From: Frigidibacter sp. SD6-1
Lineage (GTDB): Bacteria > Pseudomonadota > Alphaproteobacteria > Rhodobacterales > Rhodobacteraceae
Reading direction: 5' to 3'
Length of the DNA stretch: 64,000 nt
Assembly: GCF_030143255.1 (NCBI RefSeq)
Contig: NZ_JARJNR010000006.1
Coordinates: 186,001 to 250,000 of the forward strand
The position numbers and the translations under genes are program-made. Positions 22,341-32,504 of this stretch are shown here, piece after piece. Under the pieces are notes generated by a model that was given only the letters and a program-made list of their open reading frames with translations, searched no databases and had not been told where the DNA came from. Numbering within the stretch: position 1 is the stretch's first letter; the number at the start of each line of letters is the position of its first letter.

Positions 22341-24407
22341 TCAGTTCAGGTCCTTCAACAGCCGCCTGTGCCGCGCCACCTCGGCGATCACCGCCCCGAA
22401 AGTCTCGAACCCGCGCCCCTTCAGCATCTGGACCATCTTCAGAAACACATCCGCCGTCGCGACGGCATCGCCTAGCGCCGTGTGCCGGTCCTCCTCGGCG
22501 ATGGAAACGCCCAACCGGTGGGCCAGCGCGTCGAGCGTATGGACCTCGTGCTGGCCCCAGAGCACTGCAGACAGCAACACGGTATCGAACACCGGGTGAT
22601 CGAACCTCAGGCCCGTCGCGCCCTCGGTCCGGCGCAGGAATTCCATGTCGAAGGGCGCATTGTGGGCGACGAGAACCGCCCCCTCGGCGAAGCGGTGAAA
22701 GCGCGCGACCGCCTCGGCGACGGGCGGCGCATCCGCAACCATCGCGTCGGTGATGCCATGGACAGCGGTCGAGGCGGGCGGGATCGGGCGGGCGGGGTTG
22801 ACCAGAAGGTCGAAGACCTCGCCCGCCACGCGCCTGCCGTTGACGATGCGTATGGCAGCAAGCTGCACGATCTCGTCACCTTCATGCGGCAGAAGGCCGG
22901 TCGTTTCGCTGTCGAAGACGACATAGGTCAGGTCGGCCAGCCGCGCCTCGCCCGCGGGTGCATTCCGCGCGCGGGCGAGAAGATCGAAGTCGTAGGTTAC
23001 CCGTCGCGCGACAGGCGCGGGCCGCGCCTCGGCCCGGCGCGCCGACAGGATCGGCAGACAGAGCGACTGGCGTCCGGCCGCGGCCGGCTCGGGCCAGATG
23101 TCGGTCCCATGCGCGATGAGGACGCTGCGCCGCGATGGAAGCGGATGGCCGGGATCGAGCGGCCGGTCGAGCCAGCCTTCCAGCCGCCCGACCGGCAGCG
23201 GATCGCCTGACCAGGACAGCCGAAGTGCCGCGCCGCTGCCTTCCTCGGCGATCACAAGCCCGACCTCGCTGGCAAAGGCGGCTTCATGCAGCTCCTCGGC
23301 CAGACCGGAGAGCAGCGCGATCAGATCGAACCCGTTGCAGCGCAGAAGCAGCGCTGCCGCCTCGCCCCCGGCCGCCAGACCCGCGGCCTCGGAGCGCGCG
23401 CGCCAGCCATCCATCAGATCCGAGGCCCGCGTCATCGGCAGGATCCCGGCGCCGCGGTCCGCCCCCCCGTCCCGCGCATGAAGGGAAACCGCCGCCGAAA
23501 GCTTCGCCGCCTCGTCGCGCAGCGCGCCCATCAGCGGCGGCGCGGTATCGTCCGCGATCACCGCCTCGGCGAGTGCCGACAGGTTTGCCGAAGCGCGGCG
23601 CACCCCATCGGTGAATGCCGCCTCGCGCGCCGCGCGCTCAGCCGCTGCGGCCTGTTCCTGCGTGATATCGCGCAGGCTGAGTGCATAGGCAGGCGCCGCG
23701 CCACCGCCCGGCGTGAGCCGCATGCGGGCCGCCAGAACATGCGCACCCTCGCGCGTCACGCACAGAAGGTCAGACGCAACATCGCTGTCCCCTTCCGCCA
23801 CGAGCCTGTCATAGGCATGCCGGATCGGACCGGCGCGCAGATAGTCGAACAGCTTGCGATCAAGGCCGGGTCCGGCGAAATCCGCGCCGAGATAGTCGGC
23901 CGCGGGCGCGTTGTAGAAGGCGATCTGATGGTCGGACGTGCAAAGGATCAGCCCGAAGGGAATGTCCGCCATCATCGCCTCGAGCCGTGCCTTTTCGTTC
24001 GCGATGCGTGTCGTCTCGCGCGCCACGGTTTCTGCCAGCGCACTGCGCGCTTCCTCAAGGCTGCGGGCGGCGGCGGCGGCGGCGGGCGCCAGATCGCCCA
24101 GATGTCGCGCAATGGCCGCATCCAGTTCCTGGCCGCCTTCGGCATGCGCGCGGGCGCGCAGCTCGCCCGACAGACGGTCGATCGGCTTGGCCACGTTCAG
24201 ATCGAAGAGGTACCAGATCCAGGCGACCAGCCCGATGGTCAGAAAGACCGCAATGAGGGCGGACTGGGTGAACCCGTCCCTCGCCTCGGTCAGGCCCAGA
24301 CGATGGTAGCCCGCGACTGCGCCCGAAGTGATCGCGAACGCCGCCCCGAGGCCGAGCAAGAAGAAGAACAGAAGCACCCGCGTGCGAAGCGACAGGCGCG
24401 CGAACAT
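22341..24407 (-). CDS. Membrane PAS/pseudo-kinase protein fused to DEDDh 3'-5' exonuclease
   Basis: A 688-residue multidomain protein. Two membrane segments (about 8-30 and 48-67), a linker resembling HAMP, a PAS domain (about 148-262), a region that occupies the place of a kinase core (about 265-480), and a DnaQ/epsilon-like exonuclease (about 490-685). The exonuclease is complete: Asp499 and Glu501 in VVFDSETTGL, Asp587 in HNAPFD, His642 and Asp647 in RHTALGDA. The kinase-like part has no phospho-acceptor histidine and no N or G boxes, so it is probably a pseudo-kinase. It directly follows a response-regulator gene (no gap) and belongs with the acetate module upstream. Nucleic acid or nucleotide target unknown. 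Confidence 0.85.
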   Translation of the reverse strand: MFARLSLRTRVLLFFFLLGLGAAFAITSGAVAGYHRLGLTEARDGFTQSALIAVFLTIGLVAWIWYLFDLNVAKPIDRLSGELRARAHAEGGQELDAAIARHLGDLAPAAAAAARSLEEARSALAETVARETTRIANEKARLEAMMADIPFGLILCTSDHQIAFYNAPAADYLGADFAGPGLDRKLFDYLRAGPIRHAYDRLVAEGDSDVASDLLCVTREGAHVLAARMRLTPGGGAAPAYALSLRDITQEQAAAAERAAREAAFTDGVRRASANLSALAEAVIADDTAPPLMGALRDEAAKLSAAVSLHARDGGADRGAGILPMTRASDLMDGWRARSEAAGLAAGGEAAALLLRCNGFDLIALLSGLAEELHEAAFASEVGLVIAEEGSGAALRLSWSGDPLPVGRLEGWLDRPLDPGHPLPSRRSVLIAHGTDIWPEPAAAGRQSLCLPILSARRAEARPAPVARRVTYDFDLLARARNAPAGEARLADLTYVVFDSETTGLLPHEGDEIVQLAAIRIVNGRRVAGEVFDLLVNPARPIPPASTAVHGITDAMVADAPPVAEAVARFHRFAEGAVLVAHNAPFDMEFLRRTEGATGLRFDHPVFDTVLLSAVLWGQHEVHTLDALAHRLGVSIAEEDRHTALGDAVATADVFLKMVQMLKGRGFETFGAVIAEVARHRRLLKDLN

Positions 24408-24803
24408 CTACTCAGCCTTGTCCAGCAGTCGGTGCATCTCGCTGCGCAGCTCCTTCAGTTCGAAGGGCTTGGCGATGAACCCGTCGGCCCCAAGCGCCAG
24501 CCCCTTGCGCCGTTCGACTGCTGATCCGCGCGCGGTCATCATCAGGATGGGGATATGTTTCAGTTCGGGATCAAGCCGAACCGCCTGACAAATCTCGTAT
24601 CCCGACATTTCCGGCAGCATCACGTCCAGAAGCACGAGGTCGGGGTGGCTGGCGCGGATGCGCTCCATCGCCTCGGCACCGTTCGAAACCCGCTCGGGTT
24701 CCAGCCCCTCGCGGCGGATCAGATAGTCGAGCGCGATGGCGATATTGTCCTCGTCCTCGACCACGAGCACTCTTGGGATACTCGCCTGTGCCGGTTGTGT
24801 CAC
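24408..24803 (-). CDS. Single-domain response regulator
   Basis: A stand-alone receiver domain of 131 residues with VLVVEDEDN (acidic pair), the phospho-acceptor Asp in LVLLDVMLPEMSGYE, Thr in MMTARGS and Lys in FIAKPFEL: all active-site residues are present. No output domain. Its stop codon is followed immediately by the ATG of the PAS-exonuclease gene, so the two are almost certainly expressed together. As that partner lacks kinase residues, the phosphate donor must be elsewhere. Confidence 0.93.
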   Translation of the reverse strand: MTQPAQASIPRVLVVEDEDNIAIALDYLIRREGLEPERVSNGAEAMERIRASHPDLVLLDVMLPEMSGYEICQAVRLDPELKHIPILMMTARGSAVERRKGLALGADGFIAKPFELKELRSEMHRLLDKAE

Positions 24804-24804
24804 A

Positions 24805-25338
24805 TCAGCCTCCCGACGGCGCGGCCCCGCAGGCCGCCTTCAGCACCGGGTCGTCAGCGGCTGGCACTGTCCAGTCTGCGCCCGACAAGGTGCCTTCTGC
24901 CGTGACTTCCGCCCCCGCCGTCAGCAGCGCATGACGCCCCCCGGCGCAATCAAAGACCATGAGAGCCGCCTGCACCGGCCGCCAGCGGCCGAAATCATAA
25001 ACCTGCGCCATGCGCAGCTCCGGCCGAACCGGATGCGCCGCCATCTCGCGCCGATCGAGCGCCACGAAATGCGTCGTCAGCGGGAAGAGGTAGGTCCATG
25101 GCCTGAGCGGCATCGCGCCTCTGTCTTGCCAGACCACCGTCACACCCTCGGGCAGGTCGGCGGTGGCGCGGTGGTACCAGTCATATTCCGACCAGATGGT
25201 GAAGCCGATGAGCCCGATCCCGGCGGCGGCCGGAACGATCCATCTGGGCATGCGCCCGCCGGACAGGCGCCGGGCGAGCATGGCGATGCCTGCAAGGGCG
25301 AAGGCGGCGGCAAGGGCGGCGATCAGTTCAAGGGCCAT
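24805..25338 (-). CDS. Conserved hypothetical membrane-anchored protein
   Basis: 177 residues, not assigned to a named family. Two hydrophobic segments (about 3-22 and 32-48) are followed by a polar domain opening SEYDWYHRATADLPEGVTVV, probably outside the cytoplasm. It contains PLRPWTYLFPLTTHFVALDR and two cysteines (about 138 and 170). Sits one base upstream of the response-regulator gene and 4 bp after the DUF294 gene, so it is part of the same operon. Confidence 0.7.
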   Translation of the reverse strand: MALELIAALAAAFALAGIAMLARRLSGGRMPRWIVPAAAGIGLIGFTIWSEYDWYHRATADLPEGVTVVWQDRGAMPLRPWTYLFPLTTHFVALDRREMAAHPVRPELRMAQVYDFGRWRPVQAALMVFDCAGGRHALLTAGAEVTAEGTLSGADWTVPAADDPVLKAACGAAPSGG

Positions 25339-25342
25339 TCTG

Positions 25343-27166
25343 TCATCCCGGGGCGCCGCGGGACTGTCCCACGGCGGATTGCATGGTGCGCACGACGACG
25401 AAGGCGTCGCGCAGGTGGCTGCGGTCGAAATCCGCCAGGTCGTAGGGCGCTAGGAAATTGTCGGGCTTTGCCCCTGCGCGCACGAGGCGCATCTGATGGA
25501 CAAGCCGCATCTCGGCGATCAGGTCATAGGCCGCGATCAGATCGCGCGCGCCCGAGGCCGAGATCACGCCTGCCGCCTCTGCCGCCTCCAGCCGGGCGCG
25601 GGTGTTCACGGCCTCGATCCGCCCGATCAGCGCATAGACGCGCGCAAGGTCGGTGACCGGCACAACGCCATTATGCTTCATGTCGATCCTGTCCTTGTGC
25701 TCGCCCGAGCGGATGGTGGCAAAGCCTCTCAGGAGCCCCAGCGGCGGGGCGTGTTTCAGGCTGTTGGCGACCATATGGGCGACGAAGATCGAATTCTTCG
25801 CGGCCCGTTCCAGCGTCTCGCGCTGCAGATCGGCGAACAGGCCCACCGTGCCACCAATCGGGCGCAGGTCGAACATCACGCTCGCCAGCATCTGCGCCAT
25901 CGGATCGGGCGTGGCGATCCAGCCGCGGAAATAGTCGCGCCAGACCGCGACGCGCTGGCACCATTTGGGATTGGTGGCCATCATGTCGCCAGGGCAATAA
26001 ACATAGCCGCAGTCGTTCAGCCCGTCCGACACGATGCGGGCGAGCGCCGCGAAATAGTCCATGTCCGCCTCGGTCGCGGCATCCTCGATCATCAGGCAAT
26101 TGTCCTGATCGCTGACGCCCGTCTGTTCCTGCCGCCCCTGGCTGCCGCAGGCGAGCCAGAGGTAGAGCACGGGCGGGGGGCCAAGCTTTTCCTCGGCCAT
26201 GGCCAGCAGCCGGCGCGTCACCGTATCGGCGACATCGGTGATGAGGCGGGTGGTGACCTCATGCGGCGTGTTCGCGCCGACGAGCTGCGCCAGAAGCTGC
26301 GGGATGCGCGCGGTTGCCGCCGCCATCTCGGCGACCGTGGCCGCCGCCGCCACATCGCGGACAATCTGGCCGGAGCCCACCGCCTGAAAGCGGGTGAGAT
26401 CGGTCTGGGTGACCATGCCGACGAGCCGCCCGCCGTCGACCACCGGCAGATGGCCGATGCGGCGTTCGTACATCAGATGCAGCACATCCGAGCCGAGTGC
26501 TTCAGGCCCCAGCGACACCGGATCGCGTGTCATGACCGCCCCGACCGGCGTCGCGCCCGGCAGGCCCGCCGCCAGCACGCGCCCGGTCATGTCGCGCGTC
26601 GTGAGGATGCCCACGAGCCGTTCGCCCTCGACGACCCCGACCGAAGAGACGCCCGCATCGCGCATCCGCCGCGCAGCCTCCTCGACCGTATCGACGGGCG
26701 TCACCGTGACCGACGCCTGCGCCATCAGGTCCGCCACCTTGCGGGTGGCGATCCCGGCGCTGCGCGGCTCGCTCGCGCGGCCACGACCAAAGAACCGCTC
26801 GAACGCCGCACTTGTGCCCAGCAGCCTGCGATATTCGGCAGGCGGCAGGACGAGTATCTCGCTGTCGTCTGTCGCCGATGCCGATGTAACGGCCAGTCCG
26901 TCCCGTGCGAGGCCGCGCTCGCCGAAAGAGTTGCGGGGGCCGAGAAGCGATATGGTCTGGCCGAGGCTGTCCTTCACCTCGACCGCGCCCGCGCGGATCA
27001 GGTAGAGCCCGTCAAGCGGCTGGCCGATCTGATAGATCGCCGCGCCTTTCGCGTAGGTTCTGCGGCTGAAGGAACCGGCGACGCGCGCCAGCTCGTCCCG
27101 CGGCAGACTGTCGTAGGGATGGACCGCGTCCAGAAAGCCGGTGACTGTATCCAACCCTTCGCTCAT
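25343..27166 (-). CDS. cNMP-binding/CBS/DUF294 GlnD-like nucleotidyltransferase
   Basis: 607 residues in four parts: a cyclic-nucleotide-binding-like domain (about 10-125), a CBS pair (about 143-262), a GlnD-like nucleotidyltransferase (DUF294, about 300-430) and a DUF294 C-terminal helical domain. The transferase motif is intact: GSQGRQEQTGVSDQDN with Gly341-Ser342 and Asp353/Asp355. The HD domain of GlnD is absent. Such proteins are often found next to ActP-type symporters and DnaQ-like exonucleases, and may modify a target with a nucleotide in response to cNMP/adenylate levels; activity is not established. A terminator separates it from actP. Confidence 0.88.
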   Translation of the reverse strand: MSEGLDTVTGFLDAVHPYDSLPRDELARVAGSFSRRTYAKGAAIYQIGQPLDGLYLIRAGAVEVKDSLGQTISLLGPRNSFGERGLARDGLAVTSASATDDSEILVLPPAEYRRLLGTSAAFERFFGRGRASEPRSAGIATRKVADLMAQASVTVTPVDTVEEAARRMRDAGVSSVGVVEGERLVGILTTRDMTGRVLAAGLPGATPVGAVMTRDPVSLGPEALGSDVLHLMYERRIGHLPVVDGGRLVGMVTQTDLTRFQAVGSGQIVRDVAAAATVAEMAAATARIPQLLAQLVGANTPHEVTTRLITDVADTVTRRLLAMAEEKLGPPPVLYLWLACGSQGRQEQTGVSDQDNCLMIEDAATEADMDYFAALARIVSDGLNDCGYVYCPGDMMATNPKWCQRVAVWRDYFRGWIATPDPMAQMLASVMFDLRPIGGTVGLFADLQRETLERAAKNSIFVAHMVANSLKHAPPLGLLRGFATIRSGEHKDRIDMKHNGVVPVTDLARVYALIGRIEAVNTRARLEAAEAAGVISASGARDLIAAYDLIAEMRLVHQMRLVRAGAKPDNFLAPYDLADFDRSHLRDAFVVVRTMQSAVGQSRGAPG

Positions 27167-27180
27167 TTGGAATGCCTGTC

Positions 27181-27214
27181 AAAAGGGAACGCCCCCGACC
27201 TTGGGCCGGGGGCG
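27181..27214 (-). terminator. Rho-independent terminator after the symporter gene
   Basis: An 8-bp stem CGCCCCCG/CGGGGGCG (27190-27197, 27207-27214). On the minus-strand RNA it is followed by TTCCCTTTT. It lies 10 bp past the symporter stop and 15 bp before the DUF294 start, so downstream genes depend on read-through or a separate promoter. Confidence 0.75.
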
Positions 27215-27223
27215 CATCTGTCA

Positions 27224-29176
27224 TCAGTGGGCCTGAGCCGCGCCCGCCCCTTTCGGGATGCGGATCGACTCGACCAGCTCGACCACCTCTTGCGGCGGGG
27301 CCTTCGTCATGCCCGTCACCACATAGGCAACGACGAAGTTCACCAGGGCGCCGACCGTCCCGATCGACAAGGGCGAGATCCCGAAGAAGTAGTTCGCCGC
27401 GGTGTTTTCGTAGACGTTCGTACCCGGGATGAAGAACCAGCCGAGGTAGAGGAAGATGTAGACCGATGTGAACGCCAGACCGGCCAGCATGCCCGAGATC
27501 GCCCCTTCCTTGTTGATGCGGGTCGAGAAGATCCCCATCATCAGCGCCGGGAAGATCGTGGCAGCTGCCAGACCGAAGGCCAGAGCGACCACCTGCGCGG
27601 CAAAGCCGGGCGGGTTGAGGCCAAGCCAGGTCGCCACCGCGATGGCGACACCCATCGAGATACGGGCGGCAAGAAGTTCGCCCTTCTCAGAGATCTGCGG
27701 GTTCAGCGAACCCTTGATCAGGTCGTGGCTGATGGCCGACGAGATGGCCAGCAGAAGCCCCGCCGCCGTCGAGAGCGCGGCAGCAAGGCCACCGGCGGCG
27801 ACAAGCGCGATCACCCAACCCGGAAGCTTGGCGATCTCGGGGTTGGCAAGGACCATGATGTCATTGTCGATCTTGGTCACTTCGTTGCCGACGAGCCCGC
27901 GTTCGGCCAGCGACTTGCCGCCGAGCGTGGCTTCGGCCAGTGCCGCATCGACCGCCGCCTTGGCTTCCGCCACCTTGGCTTCCAGGGCCGACTTGTCGGC
28001 TTCGGTCGAGTCCGCCAGCGCCTTGGAGGCATCGGCGAGCGCCTTGTTGGCAGCAGTCACCGCCTTCGGTTCGTTGAAGTACTGGATCTTGCCGTCGCCG
28101 TTGAGATCGCTGAACTCAAGCAGTTTCGTCGCCTTCCAGGTATTGATCCAGGCCAGTTCCGGCTTGCTGTCGATGTCGGCAAGCGCAATCGCGTCGCCGT
28201 CAAGGGCATTGCCGGTCACCGCGTTCGGCCAGAAGGTCGTGGTCAGGTTCAGCCGCGCCATCGAGCCTACCGCCGGGGCGACGGTATAGAGAAGCGCGAT
28301 GAACACCAGCGCCCAGCCCGCGGACGACCGCGCGTCCGAAACCTTGGGAACGGTGAAGAAGCGGATGATGACGTGCGGCAGACCGGCGGTCCCGATCATG
28401 AGCGACATGGTGAAGAGAACCATGTTGAACATGTTCGACGTGTCGGCCGTGTAGGCGGTGAAGCCCAGTTCCGTCACGACCTGATCAAGCTTCTCGAGCA
28501 TCGCCACTTCGCCGCCCTGCGGCGCGTAGCTGCCGATCAGGCCAAGCTGGGGCAGGAAGCTGCCGGTCAGCTGCAGCGAGATGAAGATCGCCGGGATCGT
28601 GTAGGCGATGATCAGCACGACATATTGCGCCACCTGTGTATAGGTGATGCCCTTCATGCCGCCGAGGACCGCGTAGGCAAACACGATCGCCGCGCCGATA
28701 TAAAGGCCGTTGTCCGTCGACACTTCGAGGAAGCGCGAGAAAGTCACGCCGACGCCGCGCATCTGGCCGATAACATAGGTGACCGAGATGACGATCAGGC
28801 AGACGACGGCCACAAGCCGCGCCGTGCCCGAATAGAAGCGGTCGCCGATGAACTCAGGCACGGTGAACTTGCCGAACTTGCGCAGATAGGGCGCAAGCAG
28901 AAGGGCAAGCAGCACATAACCGCCCGTCCAGCCCATCAGGAAGGCCGATTGCTGGTAGCCGCCAGCCGGCGACAGGGCGATGATGCCCGCCATCGAGATG
29001 AACGAGGCCGCCGACATCCAGTCGGCGCCCGTGGCCATGCCGTTCATCACCGGATGAACGCCGCGACCGGCTGCATAGAATTCTGCGGTCGAGCCCGCAC
29101 GGGCCCAGATCGCGATCCCGATGTAGAGGGCGAAAGTCATGCCCACCACAATCAGGTTGAGGGTAAACTGATCCAT
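27224..29176 (-). CDS. ActP-type sodium:solute symporter with large periplasmic insertion
   Basis: 650-residue SSS-family transporter, probably for acetate and related monocarboxylates. It has the family features RGVHPVMNGMATGADWMSAAS (first helices) and YVIGQMRGVGVTFSRFLEVS. About residues 307-452 form an insertion not found in E. coli ActP, with an EF-hand-like calcium loop DLNGDGKIQYFNE (357-369) and an alanine/lysine/glutamate-rich helical stretch (373-418). Together with DUF4212 upstream it forms the usual pair for this subgroup. It is shorter on kinase-like domains than CrbS, so a pure transporter. Confidence 0.92.
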   Translation of the reverse strand: MDQFTLNLIVVGMTFALYIGIAIWARAGSTAEFYAAGRGVHPVMNGMATGADWMSAASFISMAGIIALSPAGGYQQSAFLMGWTGGYVLLALLLAPYLRKFGKFTVPEFIGDRFYSGTARLVAVVCLIVISVTYVIGQMRGVGVTFSRFLEVSTDNGLYIGAAIVFAYAVLGGMKGITYTQVAQYVVLIIAYTIPAIFISLQLTGSFLPQLGLIGSYAPQGGEVAMLEKLDQVVTELGFTAYTADTSNMFNMVLFTMSLMIGTAGLPHVIIRFFTVPKVSDARSSAGWALVFIALLYTVAPAVGSMARLNLTTTFWPNAVTGNALDGDAIALADIDSKPELAWINTWKATKLLEFSDLNGDGKIQYFNEPKAVTAANKALADASKALADSTEADKSALEAKVAEAKAAVDAALAEATLGGKSLAERGLVGNEVTKIDNDIMVLANPEIAKLPGWVIALVAAGGLAAALSTAAGLLLAISSAISHDLIKGSLNPQISEKGELLAARISMGVAIAVATWLGLNPPGFAAQVVALAFGLAAATIFPALMMGIFSTRINKEGAISGMLAGLAFTSVYIFLYLGWFFIPGTNVYENTAANYFFGISPLSIGTVGALVNFVVAYVVTGMTKAPPQEVVELVESIRIPKGAGAAQAH

Positions 29177-29190
29177 CTGTCCCCGTCCCC

Positions 29191-29448
29191 TTACTCTTCC
29201 ACGCCGTATTCTTTGTCGAGCTTGTTCATCTTCGCGGCGTAGGCGAAGATCAGCACAAGAAAGACATAGATCGACCCGTTCTGGGCGAACCAGAAGCCAA
29301 GGTCGGCGCCGCCGATGTGAATGCCCGAAAGCGCCGGGCGAAGAATGATGCCAAGCCCGAACGAACAGACGAACCAGATCGCAAGCGAGATCAGGATCAC
29401 CCGGACGTTCGCAGCCCAGTAGGCGTTGGACGTCGATTTGTCCGCCAT
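29191..29448 (-). CDS. DUF4212 small membrane protein, symporter partner
   Basis: 85 residues with two hydrophobic segments (VILISLAIWFVCSFGLGIIL and GSIYVFLVLIFAYA) and a charged C-terminus MNKLDKEYGVEE. This family almost always precedes an SSS symporter of the present subgroup and is presumed an accessory subunit. The ATG at 29448 has a GGGAG site 8 nt upstream and gives MADKSTSNAYW, so it was chosen over one 30 bp upstream. Confidence 0.88.
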   Translation of the reverse strand: MADKSTSNAYWAANVRVILISLAIWFVCSFGLGIILRPALSGIHIGGADLGFWFAQNGSIYVFLVLIFAYAAKMNKLDKEYGVEE

Positions 29449-29512
29449 GTCTGCTACTCCCTTTGTTGTCATTGCCAACCGGCGCCCCTCCTCCCGGGGC
29501 GCTGGCCCCTCC

Positions 29513-30196
29513 TCAGGCTGACACGCGGCCTACGACGGCTTGAAGCGCGCGGCGGACCTCTGCGATGGAAGCCATCGCATCGACCCGGTCCTGCACGCCC
29601 TTGCCTTCGTAATAGGCGATCAGCGGTGCCGTCTGGGCGTGATAGGCTTTCAGCCTTTCCCGCACCGTTTCGGCCTTGTCGTCGGCCCGGCGCTTGAACG
29701 CCGTGCCGCCGCATCTGTCACAAGTGCCCGCCCGGGCGGGTTGCTTGTGGGTATCGTGATATCCTTCGCCGCAATCGGAGCAGGTAAACCGCCCTGCGAT
29801 GCGGTCGATCATGGCCTCGTCCTCGACTTCCAGGCTGATCGCGGTGTCGACCTTCTGCCCCCGCGCGGAGAGCATGCGATCAAGCGCCTCGGCCTGCGCG
29901 GTGGTGCGGGGGAAGCCATCGAGGATGACGCCAGCACCCGTATCGGGTGCGGCCATCCGGTCGGCAAGGATGTCGAGCACGATCTCGTCCGATACGAGCC
30001 CGCCCGCCTCCATTACCGCCTTGGCCGCAAGACCGGCGGGCGTTCCCGCAGCAACCGCCGCACGCAGAAGATCGCCGGTCGAAAGCTGGACGAGGCCGAA
30101 AGCCTCTTCCAGCATACGCGCCTGCGTGCCCTTGCCGGCACCCGGAGGCCCGAGCAGGACGACGACCGGCGACCGGGTAAGAACCTCGTTCGCCAT
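29513..30196 (-). CDS. adk: Adenylate kinase, zinc-finger LID type
   Basis: Interconverts ATP + AMP and 2 ADP. The 227-residue product has the P-loop GPPGAGKGTQ, the AMP-site LSTGDLLRAAV, DGFPRTTAQAEAL and a LID with four cysteines (FTCSDCGEGY and GTCDRCGG) that bind zinc. The ATG at 30196 lies 2 bp after the acs stop, so the two are coupled. This makes sense: acetyl-CoA synthetase releases AMP, which adenylate kinase recycles. It may be a second adk copy beside one in the ribosomal region of the chromosome. Confidence 0.94.
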   Translation of the reverse strand: MANEVLTRSPVVVLLGPPGAGKGTQARMLEEAFGLVQLSTGDLLRAAVAAGTPAGLAAKAVMEAGGLVSDEIVLDILADRMAAPDTGAGVILDGFPRTTAQAEALDRMLSARGQKVDTAISLEVEDEAMIDRIAGRFTCSDCGEGYHDTHKQPARAGTCDRCGGTAFKRRADDKAETVRERLKAYHAQTAPLIAYYEGKGVQDRVDAMASIAEVRRALQAVVGRVSA

Positions 30197-30198
30197 CG

Positions 30199-32163
30199 TC
30201 ACGCCCGGTTCATGCGGTTGTTGATCAGGTCCTCGACCACCGACGGATCGGCGAGCGTCGAGATATCGCCAAGCGCGCCGTAATCGTTCTCGGCGATCTT
30301 CCTCAGGATCCGGCGCATGATCTTGCCCGACCGGGTCTTGGGCAGGCCCGGCGCCCACTGGATCAGGTCAGGGCTGGCGATCGGGCCGATCTCTGTCCGG
30401 ACCCATTTCACCAGTTCCTTGCGCAGGTCGTCGGTGGCCTCCACGCCTTTCATCAGCGTCACATAGGCATAGATGCCCTGTCCCTTGATTTCGTGCGGGT
30501 AGCCGACGACGGCGGCCTCGGCCACCTGCGCATGGGCGACGAGCGCGCTTTCGACCTCGGCCGTGCCCATGCGGTGGCCCGAGACGTTGATCACGTCATC
30601 GACGCGGCCGGTGATCCAGTAATAGCCGTCCTCATCCCGGCGGCAGCCGTCGCCGGTGAAGTAGTAGCCCTTGTACTGTTGGAAATAGGTTTCCTGGAAC
30701 CGCTGGTGATCGCCCCAGACGGTGCGCATCTGGCCCGGCCATGAATCGGCGATGCAGAGAACGCCGTCGACGCCATTGCCTTCCTGCACCTTGCCACTCT
30801 CCGCGTTCAGCACCTCTGGCCGGATGCCGAAGAAGGGCAGCGTGGCCGAACCGGGCTTCGTCGGGATCGCGCCCGGCAGGGGCGTGATCAGATGGCCACC
30901 GGTTTCGGTCTGCCACCATGTGTCGACGATCGGGCAGCGGCCCTTGCCAACGTACTTGTCATACCAGACCCAGGCTTCGGGATTGATCGGCTCGCCCACG
31001 GTGCCGAGCAGGCGCAGGGACGACAGGTCGTGCTTTTCCACCCATTCCGGCCCCTGCCCCATCAGCGCACGGATCGCGGTCGGCGCGGTATAGAACTGCG
31101 TGACCTTGTGCTTGGCGCAGACCTCCCAGAACCGGCCCGCGTCGGGCCAGGTCGGCACGCCTTCGAACATCAGCGTGGTCGCGCCGTTCGCCAGCGGGCC
31201 ATAGACGATATAGCTGTGGCCGGTGACCCAGCCCACATCCGCCGTGCACCAGTAGACGTCGCCCTCGTGGTAATCGAAGGTCAGCTCATGCGTCATCGCC
31301 GCATAGACGAGATAGCCGCCCGAGGTATGCACGACGCCCTTCGGCTTGCCGGTGGAGCCGGAGGTATAAAGGATGAAGAGCGGGTCTTCCGCATCCATCG
31401 CCTCTGCCGGGCAATCGGGGCTGGCCTTGGCCATTTCCGCCAGCACGTCCACGTCGCGCCCCTCGACCCAGGTGGTCTGGTCGCCGGTATGTTTGACGAC
31501 AAGGCATTTCACCTTGTCCGAACAATGCAGAAGCGCCGCGTCGGCGTTGGCCTTCAGGGGCGTCCGCTTGCCGCCGCGTGGCGCGGTGTCGGCGGTGATC
31601 ACCACTTTTGCCTCGCAATCGTTCACGCGGTTGGCAAGCGCGTCAGGGGAAAAGCCGCCGAACACCACCGAATGGATCGCGCCGATCCGGGCCGAGGCGA
31701 GCATCGCATAGGCCGCCTCGGGGATCATCGGCATGTAGATGATCACCCGGTCGCCGCGCTTGACGCCCTGCGCCTTCAGCACGTTCGCCATGCGCCCGAC
31801 CTTGTCGGCCAGTTCCTTGTACGAGATATGGCGGGCAGGCGTTGCCGGATCGTCCGGCTCCCAGATGATCGCTGTCTGGCCGCCACGTTTGGCGAGGTGG
31901 CGGTCGATGCAATTGGCCGCCACGTTCAGCTGGCCATCCTCGAACCATTTGATCGAGACCTGGCCGAAGGTGAAGTCGGTATTCTTGACCCGGCTGAAGG
32001 GCTTGATCCAGTCCACGCGCTTGCCATGCGCGCCCCAGAAGGCCGCCGGGTCATCGACCGAGGCGCGGTACATGTCGTCGTACTTGGCGCGGTCCACATG
32101 GGCGCGCGCGACGAATTCCTCAGGCGCAGGGTGAAGGTGCTGGGCAGAACCGGTCTCGGACAT
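30199..32163 (-). CDS. acs: Acetyl-CoA synthetase (AMP-forming)
   Basis: Activates acetate: acetate + ATP + CoA gives acetyl-CoA + AMP + PPi. The 654-residue product has [18 protein letters not shown] (P-loop), [29 protein letters not shown] and the C-terminal [15 protein letters not shown], whose lysine is the regulatory acetylation site in this family. The ATG at 32163 has a GAGGAG site 6 nt upstream and gives [17 protein letters not shown]; length matches E. coli Acs (652). First gene of the acs-adk-DUF4212-actP group. Confidence 0.97.
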
Positions 32164-32504
32164 GCTTTTCTCCTCATCGGCGGGCCGGCCGGACCCGCAT
32201 TTCCCCCGGGGCGCTGCGGGAAGGGGCAGCGCCAGTTGATGACGAGCATAGCGCAATATTAATTCCTTGATAACCCACTTTAACGAAAGGATTTTTTTGT
32301 AAATTTCTTCACATATCAGCAGAGTTTCCTGTTAATGACCGTCGCCACAGGCCCATTTCCGCAAATGTTTCAACAGGCTGCCGGTTGACGCGGCGACAGG
32401 CTGGGCCAAGACCGCCGCATCCAGCCGGAACAGACGGGGCGCGCGCGAACAAAACCGGCCGCCGGTTTCCCGGCGGCCGGTCGAATCACGCGCGCGTGAA
32501 CGCG
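32164..32504. promoter_or_regulatory. acs upstream region
   Basis: 341 bp between acs and dppF. The part from about 32250 to 32335 is strikingly AT-rich for this genome (ATATTAATTCC, GATTTTTTTG) and probably carries the acs promoter and activator sites; exact boxes are not clear. The right part holds the terminator of the dipeptide operon (32447-32481) and a 14-bp palindrome TCACGCGCGCGTGA (32486-32499). No gene is seen. Confidence 0.5.
32447..32481 (-). terminator. Rho-independent terminator of the dipeptide transporter operon
   Basis: Perfect 12-bp stem ACCGGCCGCCGG (32454-32465) and CCGGCGGCCGGT (32470-32481) with a 4-nt loop. On the minus-strand RNA it is followed by TTTGTTCG. It lies 23 bp past the dppF stop codon. 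Confidence 0.85.

Follow-up and report, generated by a model that had tools for sequence, protein, structure and literature searches.

A pseudo-histidine kinase fused to a DEDDh exonuclease and paired with a lone receiver in an acetate gene run of Frigidibacter sp. SD6-1

A stretch of 64,000 nucleotides from Frigidibacter sp. SD6-1 (contig NZ_JARJNR010000006.1, positions 186,001 to 250,000 of the forward strand; hereafter the window) encodes on its minus strand a protein that joins two presumed membrane helices, a PAS-like domain and a histidine-kinase-like core to an exonuclease, directly preceded by a lone receiver (a single-domain response regulator). Judged by its sequence, the middle region of this fusion is a histidine-kinase fold that lacks the catalytic residues throughout its family, that is, a pseudokinase. 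With a probability of about 0.6, we propose that during acetate use a kinase signals to the lone receiver, the receiver to the DHp helices of the dead kinase, and these to the fused exonuclease, whose substrate would be shared with a DUF294-type nucleotidyltransferase encoded in the same gene run.

The architecture of the fusion was modelled with AlphaFold2 from an alignment with 62 relatives (mean predicted local distance difference test (pLDDT) 88.0; predicted template modelling score (pTM) 0.70); the alignment used for conservation held 62 relatives as well, with L167 and L206 left out of the 64 named DHp-positive loci. The model places, in order, two N-terminal helices (residues 7-37 and 42-88), a long helix, a PAS-like domain (~150-247), two DHp-like helices (249-285 and 290-318), a CA-like alpha/beta domain (325-458) and the exonuclease (about 490-664). 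The N-terminal helices are presumed to lie in the membrane, hydrophobicity having been judged by eye, and the gap of ~4 residues between them would leave hardly any space for an outside sensor domain. As to the membrane helices and PAS domain that an earlier reading of the letters alone (the first-pass annotation) had described, two N-terminal helices and a mixed alpha/beta domain at the PAS position (about 150-247; block pLDDT 79-96) were borne out by the model, while the PAS itself is weak, with PAS_4 scoring 21.2 bits in the window protein against a Pfam cut-off of 23.1. Among 16 family members scanned, PAS_4 was matched at E<=1 in 14 (best 4.3e-06).

The same scans gave no match of the window protein to HisKA or HATPase at E<=1, and among the 16 members HisKA was matched in five (best 0.0019) and HATPase_c in one (0.052). 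Nevertheless, the kinase-like nature of the core, which had been suggested from the letters, was confirmed both by profile and by predicted structure. A profile of 63 members aligned with 20 CrbS-like kinases over residues 245-458 (hhalign probability 98.5, E 2.8e-15), with D267 facing the His of their HELRTP motif and R270 facing its Arg. As the rows returned by VIA for the whole model cover the exonuclease only, the DHp-CA region was folded alone (pLDDT 89.0). Its best PDB match in Foldseek was DivL (4q20_B, E 3.0e-11), narrowly ahead of LvrB (8.3e-11), and the best 50 rows are, by title, histidine kinases, DivL, phytochrome/LOV kinases and the hybrid response regulator LvrB. In VIA, many kinase domains matched the CA part, for example PrrB (Z 15.3, root-mean-square deviation (r.m.s.d.) 2.7, 131 residues aligned) and, with many rows tied to it, DivL (Z 12.8, r.m.s.d. 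3.2, 129 aligned).

The loss of the acceptor His and the ATP boxes, which the first-pass annotation had also reported, holds across the family. At the phospho-acceptor position of 125 DHp sequences (window included), Glu was found in 68, Asp in 39 (D267 in the window protein), other residues in 18 and His in none, so that an acid occupies it in 107 of 125; a conserved His among homologues, which had been named as the sign of an ordinary kinase, was thus looked for and found in 0 of 125. Furthermore, no sequence has Asp in the G1 column (0/133, with Trp in 122/133), and none of the N-box columns (366-376) has Asn in more than 6 of about 132. An ordinary active kinase was therefore rejected. The Arg three residues after the acceptor position (R270) is retained in 116 of 125. 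The residue that follows the acceptor position directly varies in the family; CrbS-like kinases have the Glu of HELRTP there. Retention of R270 fits docking of a receiver but is necessary rather than distinctive, because active kinases carry the same Arg. The CA-like domain also contains near-invariant Trp residues (W399 in 122/133, W412 in 126/133 and W438 in 113/132), of which W399 stands where the G1 Asp would be, a hint that the role of the domain has been kept but changed.

At the C terminus, residues 496-655 match RNase_T (E 4e-36, 125.5 bits against a cut-off of 24). By its residues the domain is a DEDDh (DnaQ-like) nuclease and represents the conserved output of the fusion protein: Asp499, Glu501, Asp587, His642 and Asp647, as listed in the first-pass annotation, are invariant in the 63-member alignment, and all five are intact in 163 of the 163 sequences that cover them (166 loci counted once, window included, with three broken or cut loci, L137, L143 and L146, not covering). 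The closest solved relatives by sequence are the proofreading domains of PolC and DnaQ (2p1j, E 3.8e-28), and by structure the PolC exonuclease 9qpc was matched with a VIA Z of 24.9 (r.m.s.d. 1.9, 189 aligned).

Support that receiver and fusion belong together comes from their distribution. The receiver of the window keeps its phospho-acceptor D60 as well as T90 and K112, and 106 receivers (window included) are canonical (Asp in 105, Lys in 106 and Thr/Ser in 102). Both open reading frames (ORFs) lie where they had been placed before, with the stop of the receiver and the start of the fusion following each other without a gap (junction ...GAGTAGATG...). Of 90 genomes matched, loci were taken from 50, comprising the window's own, 29 best-scoring and 20 hand-picked for spread. 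The 185-locus table is without duplicates of refetched loci and without L001, L002, L052-L063 and L101-L108, an exclusion that dropped the short forms G003, G005 and G012. Tree rows comprise the window and 168 loci, 17 of the 185 being omitted for little upstream DNA, for being fragments or for having no ETTG/ESTG motif; two locus pairs (L007/L134 and L114/L203) are identical in the last 400 amino acids (aa). A receiver was scored as adjoining when a same-strand ORF of <=350 aa ended anywhere from 620 bases inside the fusion ORF to 300 bases ahead of it; for L202, 'receiver present' was assigned manually.

By this rule a lone receiver adjoins the fusion in 103 of 113 DHp-positive rows versus 1 of 56 DHp-negative rows (Fisher p 7e-33, a statistic that ignores kinship). 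The association is found within the window's order or family (48/48 DHp-positive versus 1/34 DHp-negative) and outside it (49/57 versus 0/22), with 6 of 8 among DHp-positive rows unplaced by taxon. As the arrangement is conserved across classes, chance adjacency was rejected. In the sole DHp-negative row with a receiver (L038:3296-4015), the acidic pocket of the upstream receiver seems, by eye, to be gone, and this receiver looks degenerate, as if decaying. L214 and L216, from a lineage outside the window's class, have neither DHp nor receiver, and their DUF294 gene lies 33 bases upstream of the nuclease.

The most constant partner of the nuclease is a CNBD-CBS-DUF294 nucleotidyltransferase, whose gene stands two genes upstream of the receiver in the window (PF03445, 155.7 bits against a cut-off of 21). 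Among neighbours with a length of 420 aa or above, 120 of 122 retain the catalytic motif G-S-x(n)-D-x-D. Among 116 loci with 3 kb on both sides, the DUF294 gene was present in 95 and a window-like SSF symporter in 81. Moreover, in 149 genomes of an order sample, all from the window's family, nuclease (E<=1e-30) and DUF294 (E<=1e-60) were both found in 89 and neither in 59, with one genome having the nuclease only and none DUF294 only; the nuclease-only genome (G006) carries a diverged copy beside a CrbS-like kinase. Such near-perfect co-occurrence suggests a shared substrate or target over mere co-regulation, with the caveat that the genomes are related and hence not independent. Many relatives are without the pseudokinase layer while the nuclease stays. 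For pairing of solo nucleases with DUF294, 12 short matches from a phylum search were examined and read as replicative DnaQ; within about 3 kb on each side of these loci (L251 being cut at one end), DUF294, ActP, Acs, CrbS and the small membrane gene were absent at E<=1e-15.

The search for the same domain order in other genomes recovered the arrangement across several proteobacterial classes, with full-length members in named Alpha-, Beta- and Gammaproteobacteria, Magnetococcia and deltaproteobacterial groups, plus one each in assemblies labelled Nitrospirota and Caldilineaceae. The fusion family is old and spread over several proteobacterial classes. Rhodobacter capsulatus DSM 1710 (L136), for example, has receiver, fusion and DUF294 in this order. 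DHp-containing reading frames of at least 600 aa in one piece were found in 64 of 80 named loci, so that a frameshift or misassembly joining two genes, which the first-pass annotation had asked to be considered, was ruled out. Forms without DHp include a transmembrane-PAS-exonuclease of about 470 aa, others with a remnant of the CA domain and others in which no PAS was detected. In three named assemblies (L137, L143 and L146) the fusion gene is broken or fragmented. In two genomes of one family (L097:6400-7911, which equals L070, and L071:637-2145), an exonuclease of this kind is preceded by a stretch of several helices that resembles, by eye, an EamA-type transporter, with a DUF294 gene nearby.

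A candidate phospho-donor is found beside the pair in many lineages. Of the DHp-positive loci, 80 include 3 kb on either side, and 32 of these contain an intact kinase that we take to be CrbS-like from domain content, similarity and context (a tally that excludes L198, L221 and L222, other kinases by length or sequence, and L228). The kinase is present in 27 of the 48 such loci that fall outside the window's order or family and in 4 of 6 unplaced ones. The gene orders kinase-receiver-fusion (often), kinase-receiver-fusion-DUF294 and receiver-fusion-kinase were seen. All 39 kinase copies picked by coverage alone have HELRTP, and in six copies scanned with Pfam both HisKA and HATPase_c were over the cut-off, with a symporter domain in one of the six. 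The window's own genome has one intact CrbS-like copy, located elsewhere in the genome at C11:854885 (46% to the query).

Taken together, canonical receivers, loss of the receiver along with the DHp and nearby kinases point to phosphorylation as the input, as in DivL-DivK. DivL is a Caulobacter pseudo-histidine kinase that reads the phosphorylated single-domain response regulator DivK~P, and binding of DivK~P requires its R553, which lies three residues after Tyr550 (PMC4211667). In our proposal, a kinase, probably an acetate/pyruvate-responsive CrbS-like sensor kinase, would phosphorylate the lone receiver. Much as DivK~P docks on DivL, this receiver would then bind to the DHp helices of the pseudokinase, in a manner that may depend on the phospho-state of the receiver. 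The DHp-CA-PAS unit would relay the change to the fused exonuclease, switching it either on or off, and the PAS may contribute a second signal. The substrate of the membrane-anchored nuclease would be one in which the DUF294 nucleotidyltransferase encoded in this operon has a part as well. This substrate could be RNA, DNA or a product of the DUF294 enzyme; co-occurrence favours, without proving, something shared with DUF294. The first-pass annotation had suggested that a membrane sensor could control the nuclease 'instead of a phosphorelay'. This was probably wrong. The receivers keep their phosphorylation residues, DHp-less members are nearly always without a receiver, and beyond the window's order or family an intact kinase is near the pair in 27 of 48 DHp-positive loci; the dead kinase thus probably takes phosphorylation as its input and gates the nuclease accordingly.

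Several points weigh against this proposal. The set of loci is not a random sample. The nuclease occurs without DHp in 56 of 169 rows, and 10 of the 113 DHp-positive rows lack a receiver where one would be expected beside the fusion (L083, L142, L157 with a receiver downstream, L173, L189, L195, L196, L200, L218 and L221). Although the tree has 11 changes in DHp and 17 in the receiver, only four independent pairs lie on supported branches (on average 3.5 in the same direction, 0 in the opposite one; p 0.125); with so few independent events, the receiver-DHp pattern is strong in counts and not settled by independent changes. Of the 26 DHp-positive loci within the window's order or family, a single one (L039) has a CrbS-like kinase near the pair, and as 146 of the 149 order-sample genomes carry a CrbS-like gene, nuclease present or not, co-occurrence does not attribute this kinase to the receiver. 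Action of a CrbS-like kinase on the receiver of this organism may thus be suggested by analogy only.

Alternatively, the PAS could be the only real input, the DHp-CA remnant serving as a dimerization spacer and the receiver acting elsewhere (for example, on DUF294 or a kinase) and merely sharing the operon. The short relatives of about 470 aa, in which transmembrane-PAS-exonuclease without DHp-CA still stands beside DUF294, and the nearly or fully invariant PAS positions Y165, N166 and L182 would fit such a scheme. We consider it unlikely, as adjacency in 103/113 versus 1/56 rows is unexpected of a receiver that acts elsewhere, and as the docking Arg has been retained although catalysis was lost. 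It would surprise us considerably more if the pseudokinase were still an unusual kinase or phosphatase, using the Asp or Glu as acceptor or dephosphorylating the receiver: the acid at the acceptor position in 107 of 125 is what such an enzyme might have, but the family lacks the ATP-site residues of N-box and G1, and the residue after the acceptor is variable, versus Glu in the CrbS-like HELRTP. Equally improbable is phosphorylation of the receiver by small donors such as acetyl phosphate, by which acetate flux would be read directly, without a kinase. The acetate-related cluster, the retained phosphorylation residues and the increased DNA affinity of ErdR with acetyl phosphate in vitro (PMC8402216) are in line with it. 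However, an intact kinase gene adjoins the receiver in many other lineages, and the window's own genome has no acetate kinase match at E<=0.001, its only PTA-domain matches being two proteins that both read, by eye, as malic-enzyme fusions; acetyl phosphate as donor in this organism is thus disfavoured.

A different question is what the nuclease acts on. It could be a general 3'-5' exonuclease for RNA or DNA that trims mRNAs of central carbon metabolism, with DUF294 only co-regulated, a reading that is compatible with the input side of our proposal and that we regard as a serious possibility, if somewhat short of an even chance. Its kinship to proofreading domains agrees with such a role, as does the mRNA decay function on which the authors of a Pseudomonas putida study speculated for the exonuclease PP_0353 (PMC9927547), whereas the joint distribution of nuclease and DUF294 over genomes (both in 89, neither in 59, the nuclease alone in 1 and DUF294 alone in 0) suggests a shared substrate or target. 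One version of the proposed shared substrate is a phospho-gated pair of writer and eraser, in which DUF294, tuned by cyclic nucleotide and CBS ligands, would add a nucleotide or oligonucleotide signal to a target and the membrane exonuclease would remove it when the phosphorylated receiver docks; we offer this tentatively and hold it rather doubtful. GlnD unites writer and eraser within one chain. If true, the pair would be a split analogue of GlnD logic, with a proofreading-type nuclease as eraser and a dead histidine kinase as phospho-sensor, and carbon status would be linked to nucleotide modification.

The acetate context noted in the first-pass annotation was also recovered, in that acs, adk, DUF4212, SSF symporter and DUF294 genes precede the small membrane protein, receiver and exonuclease in one tight run on the minus strand (Table 1), the last four genes of which are nearly gapless. 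The symporter is presumably ActP-like, a name resting on domain content and context, and the DUF4212 protein is, from its position, its probable small subunit. A terminator-like hairpin of 12 pairs (27189-27215, minus strand) lies within the 57 nt that part the symporter gene from the DUF294 gene, and it may set acs-adk-DUF4212-symporter apart from the signalling genes; the scanned region has 8 terminator-like sites versus 5.1 (s.d. 2.6) in shuffles. The small membrane protein has no Pfam or NCBIfam match over the cut-off, and a relative of it was found in 86 of 185 loci.

Table 1. Features of the fusion gene and its gene run (positions in the window).
Feature	Position	Strand	Details
Pseudo-histidine-kinase/exonuclease fusion	22341..24407	minus	688 aa
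DEDDh exonuclease domain, residues 496-662	22422..22922	minus	D499, E501, D587, H642, D647
Pseudokinase region (DHp-like helices and CA-like domain), residues 247-462	23022..23669	minus	
PAS-like domain, about residues 149-252	23652..23963	minus	PAS_4 below cut-off, and model
Presumed membrane helices (two, joined by a very short outer loop), within residues 7-88	24144..24389	minus	Model
Lone receiver (single-domain response regulator)	24408..24803	minus	131 aa, GTG start; Response_reg E 2.7e-27
Small, apparently membrane-bound protein	24805..25338	minus	177 aa, between DUF294 and receiver/exonuclease
CNBD-CBS-CBS-DUF294-DUF294_C nucleotidyltransferase	25343..27166	minus	607 aa, G-S-x-G-R...D-x-D motif kept
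SSF-family symporter (ActP-like)	27224..29176	minus	PF00474 E 6.1e-49
DUF4212 protein	29191..29478	minus	Domain match
Adenylate kinase	29513..30196	minus	ADK E 2.2e-54
Acetyl-CoA synthetase	30199..32256	minus	ACAS_N and AMP-binding domains

If the proposal holds, a widespread form of bacterial two-component signalling would end in a nuclease through a repurposed dead kinase, and a so far unexplained exonuclease of the acetate/pyruvate regulon would gain a control layer and a testable substrate shared with DUF294. Furthermore, full, DHp-less and short forms occur as a natural series, some having a receiver and some not, in which the idea of a pseudokinase as reader of a phosphorylated receiver can be tested directly.

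PP_0354 of P. putida is presumably of the DUF294 type, from the description of its P. fluorescens counterpart. The genes for this CBS-domain protein and for the RNase_T exonuclease PP_0353 form an operon, the promoter of which is bound by ErdR, and deletion of PP_0353 impairs growth on pyruvate, not acetate (PMC9927547). Pflu5625, a cAMP-binding/CBS/nucleotidyltransferase protein, is among the CrbS/R targets (PMC5715377). The pair of DUF294-type protein and exonuclease near actP is therefore already in print. PMC5436829 and PMC9100948 make no mention of exonuclease, nuclease or DnaQ, and among the titles and abstracts of the matches listed from the open-licence PMC literature, no pseudokinase-exonuclease with a lone receiver was described.

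The closest parallel in known systems is DivL-DivK, which shares a dead DHp-CA after a PAS, a lone receiver as partner, an Arg at acceptor+3 (R270 being spaced from D267 as R553 is from Tyr550 of DivL) and, narrowly, the best PDB fold match; however, a Tyr occupies the acceptor position of DivL, whose regulatory target is the kinase CckA, while here the residue is mostly Asp or Glu and the chain ends in a nuclease. We claim this likeness only for the DHp-CA module and for the probable mode of action. With PP_0353/PP_0354, of the MxtR/ErdR (CrbS/CrbR) regulon, the system shares the pairing of an RNase_T exonuclease and a CBS protein within one operon, and in P. aeruginosa PAO1 such an exonuclease/CBS pair adjoins actP (PMC9927547, PMC8402216), yet the available text on that system mentions neither pseudokinase nor lone receiver, and its comparison with this fusion is by description only. 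The SLC5/STAC kinases of CrbS/CrbR (MxtR/ErdR) type stand near receiver and fusion in many lineages and match the pseudokinase by profile; unlike the fusion, a dead kinase with a nuclease, the CrbS-like kinase keeps its kinase residues, and its known output is a DNA-binding regulator. In EpsW-EpsZ of Myxococcus, a single-domain receiver likewise directly affects a membrane enzyme, but this is a phosphoglycosyl transferase, and the abstract names no kinase-like docking module (PMC12802240). The fusion has the DEDDh fold and residues of DnaQ and PolC, yet it has no polymerase in its chain, is presumably membrane-anchored and is joined to a PAS-pseudokinase. Finally, DUF294_C is grouped with the C-terminal domains of GlnD and GlnE (PMC3710099), whereas here, in contrast to GlnD, a separate DEDDh nuclease is the constant partner of DUF294.

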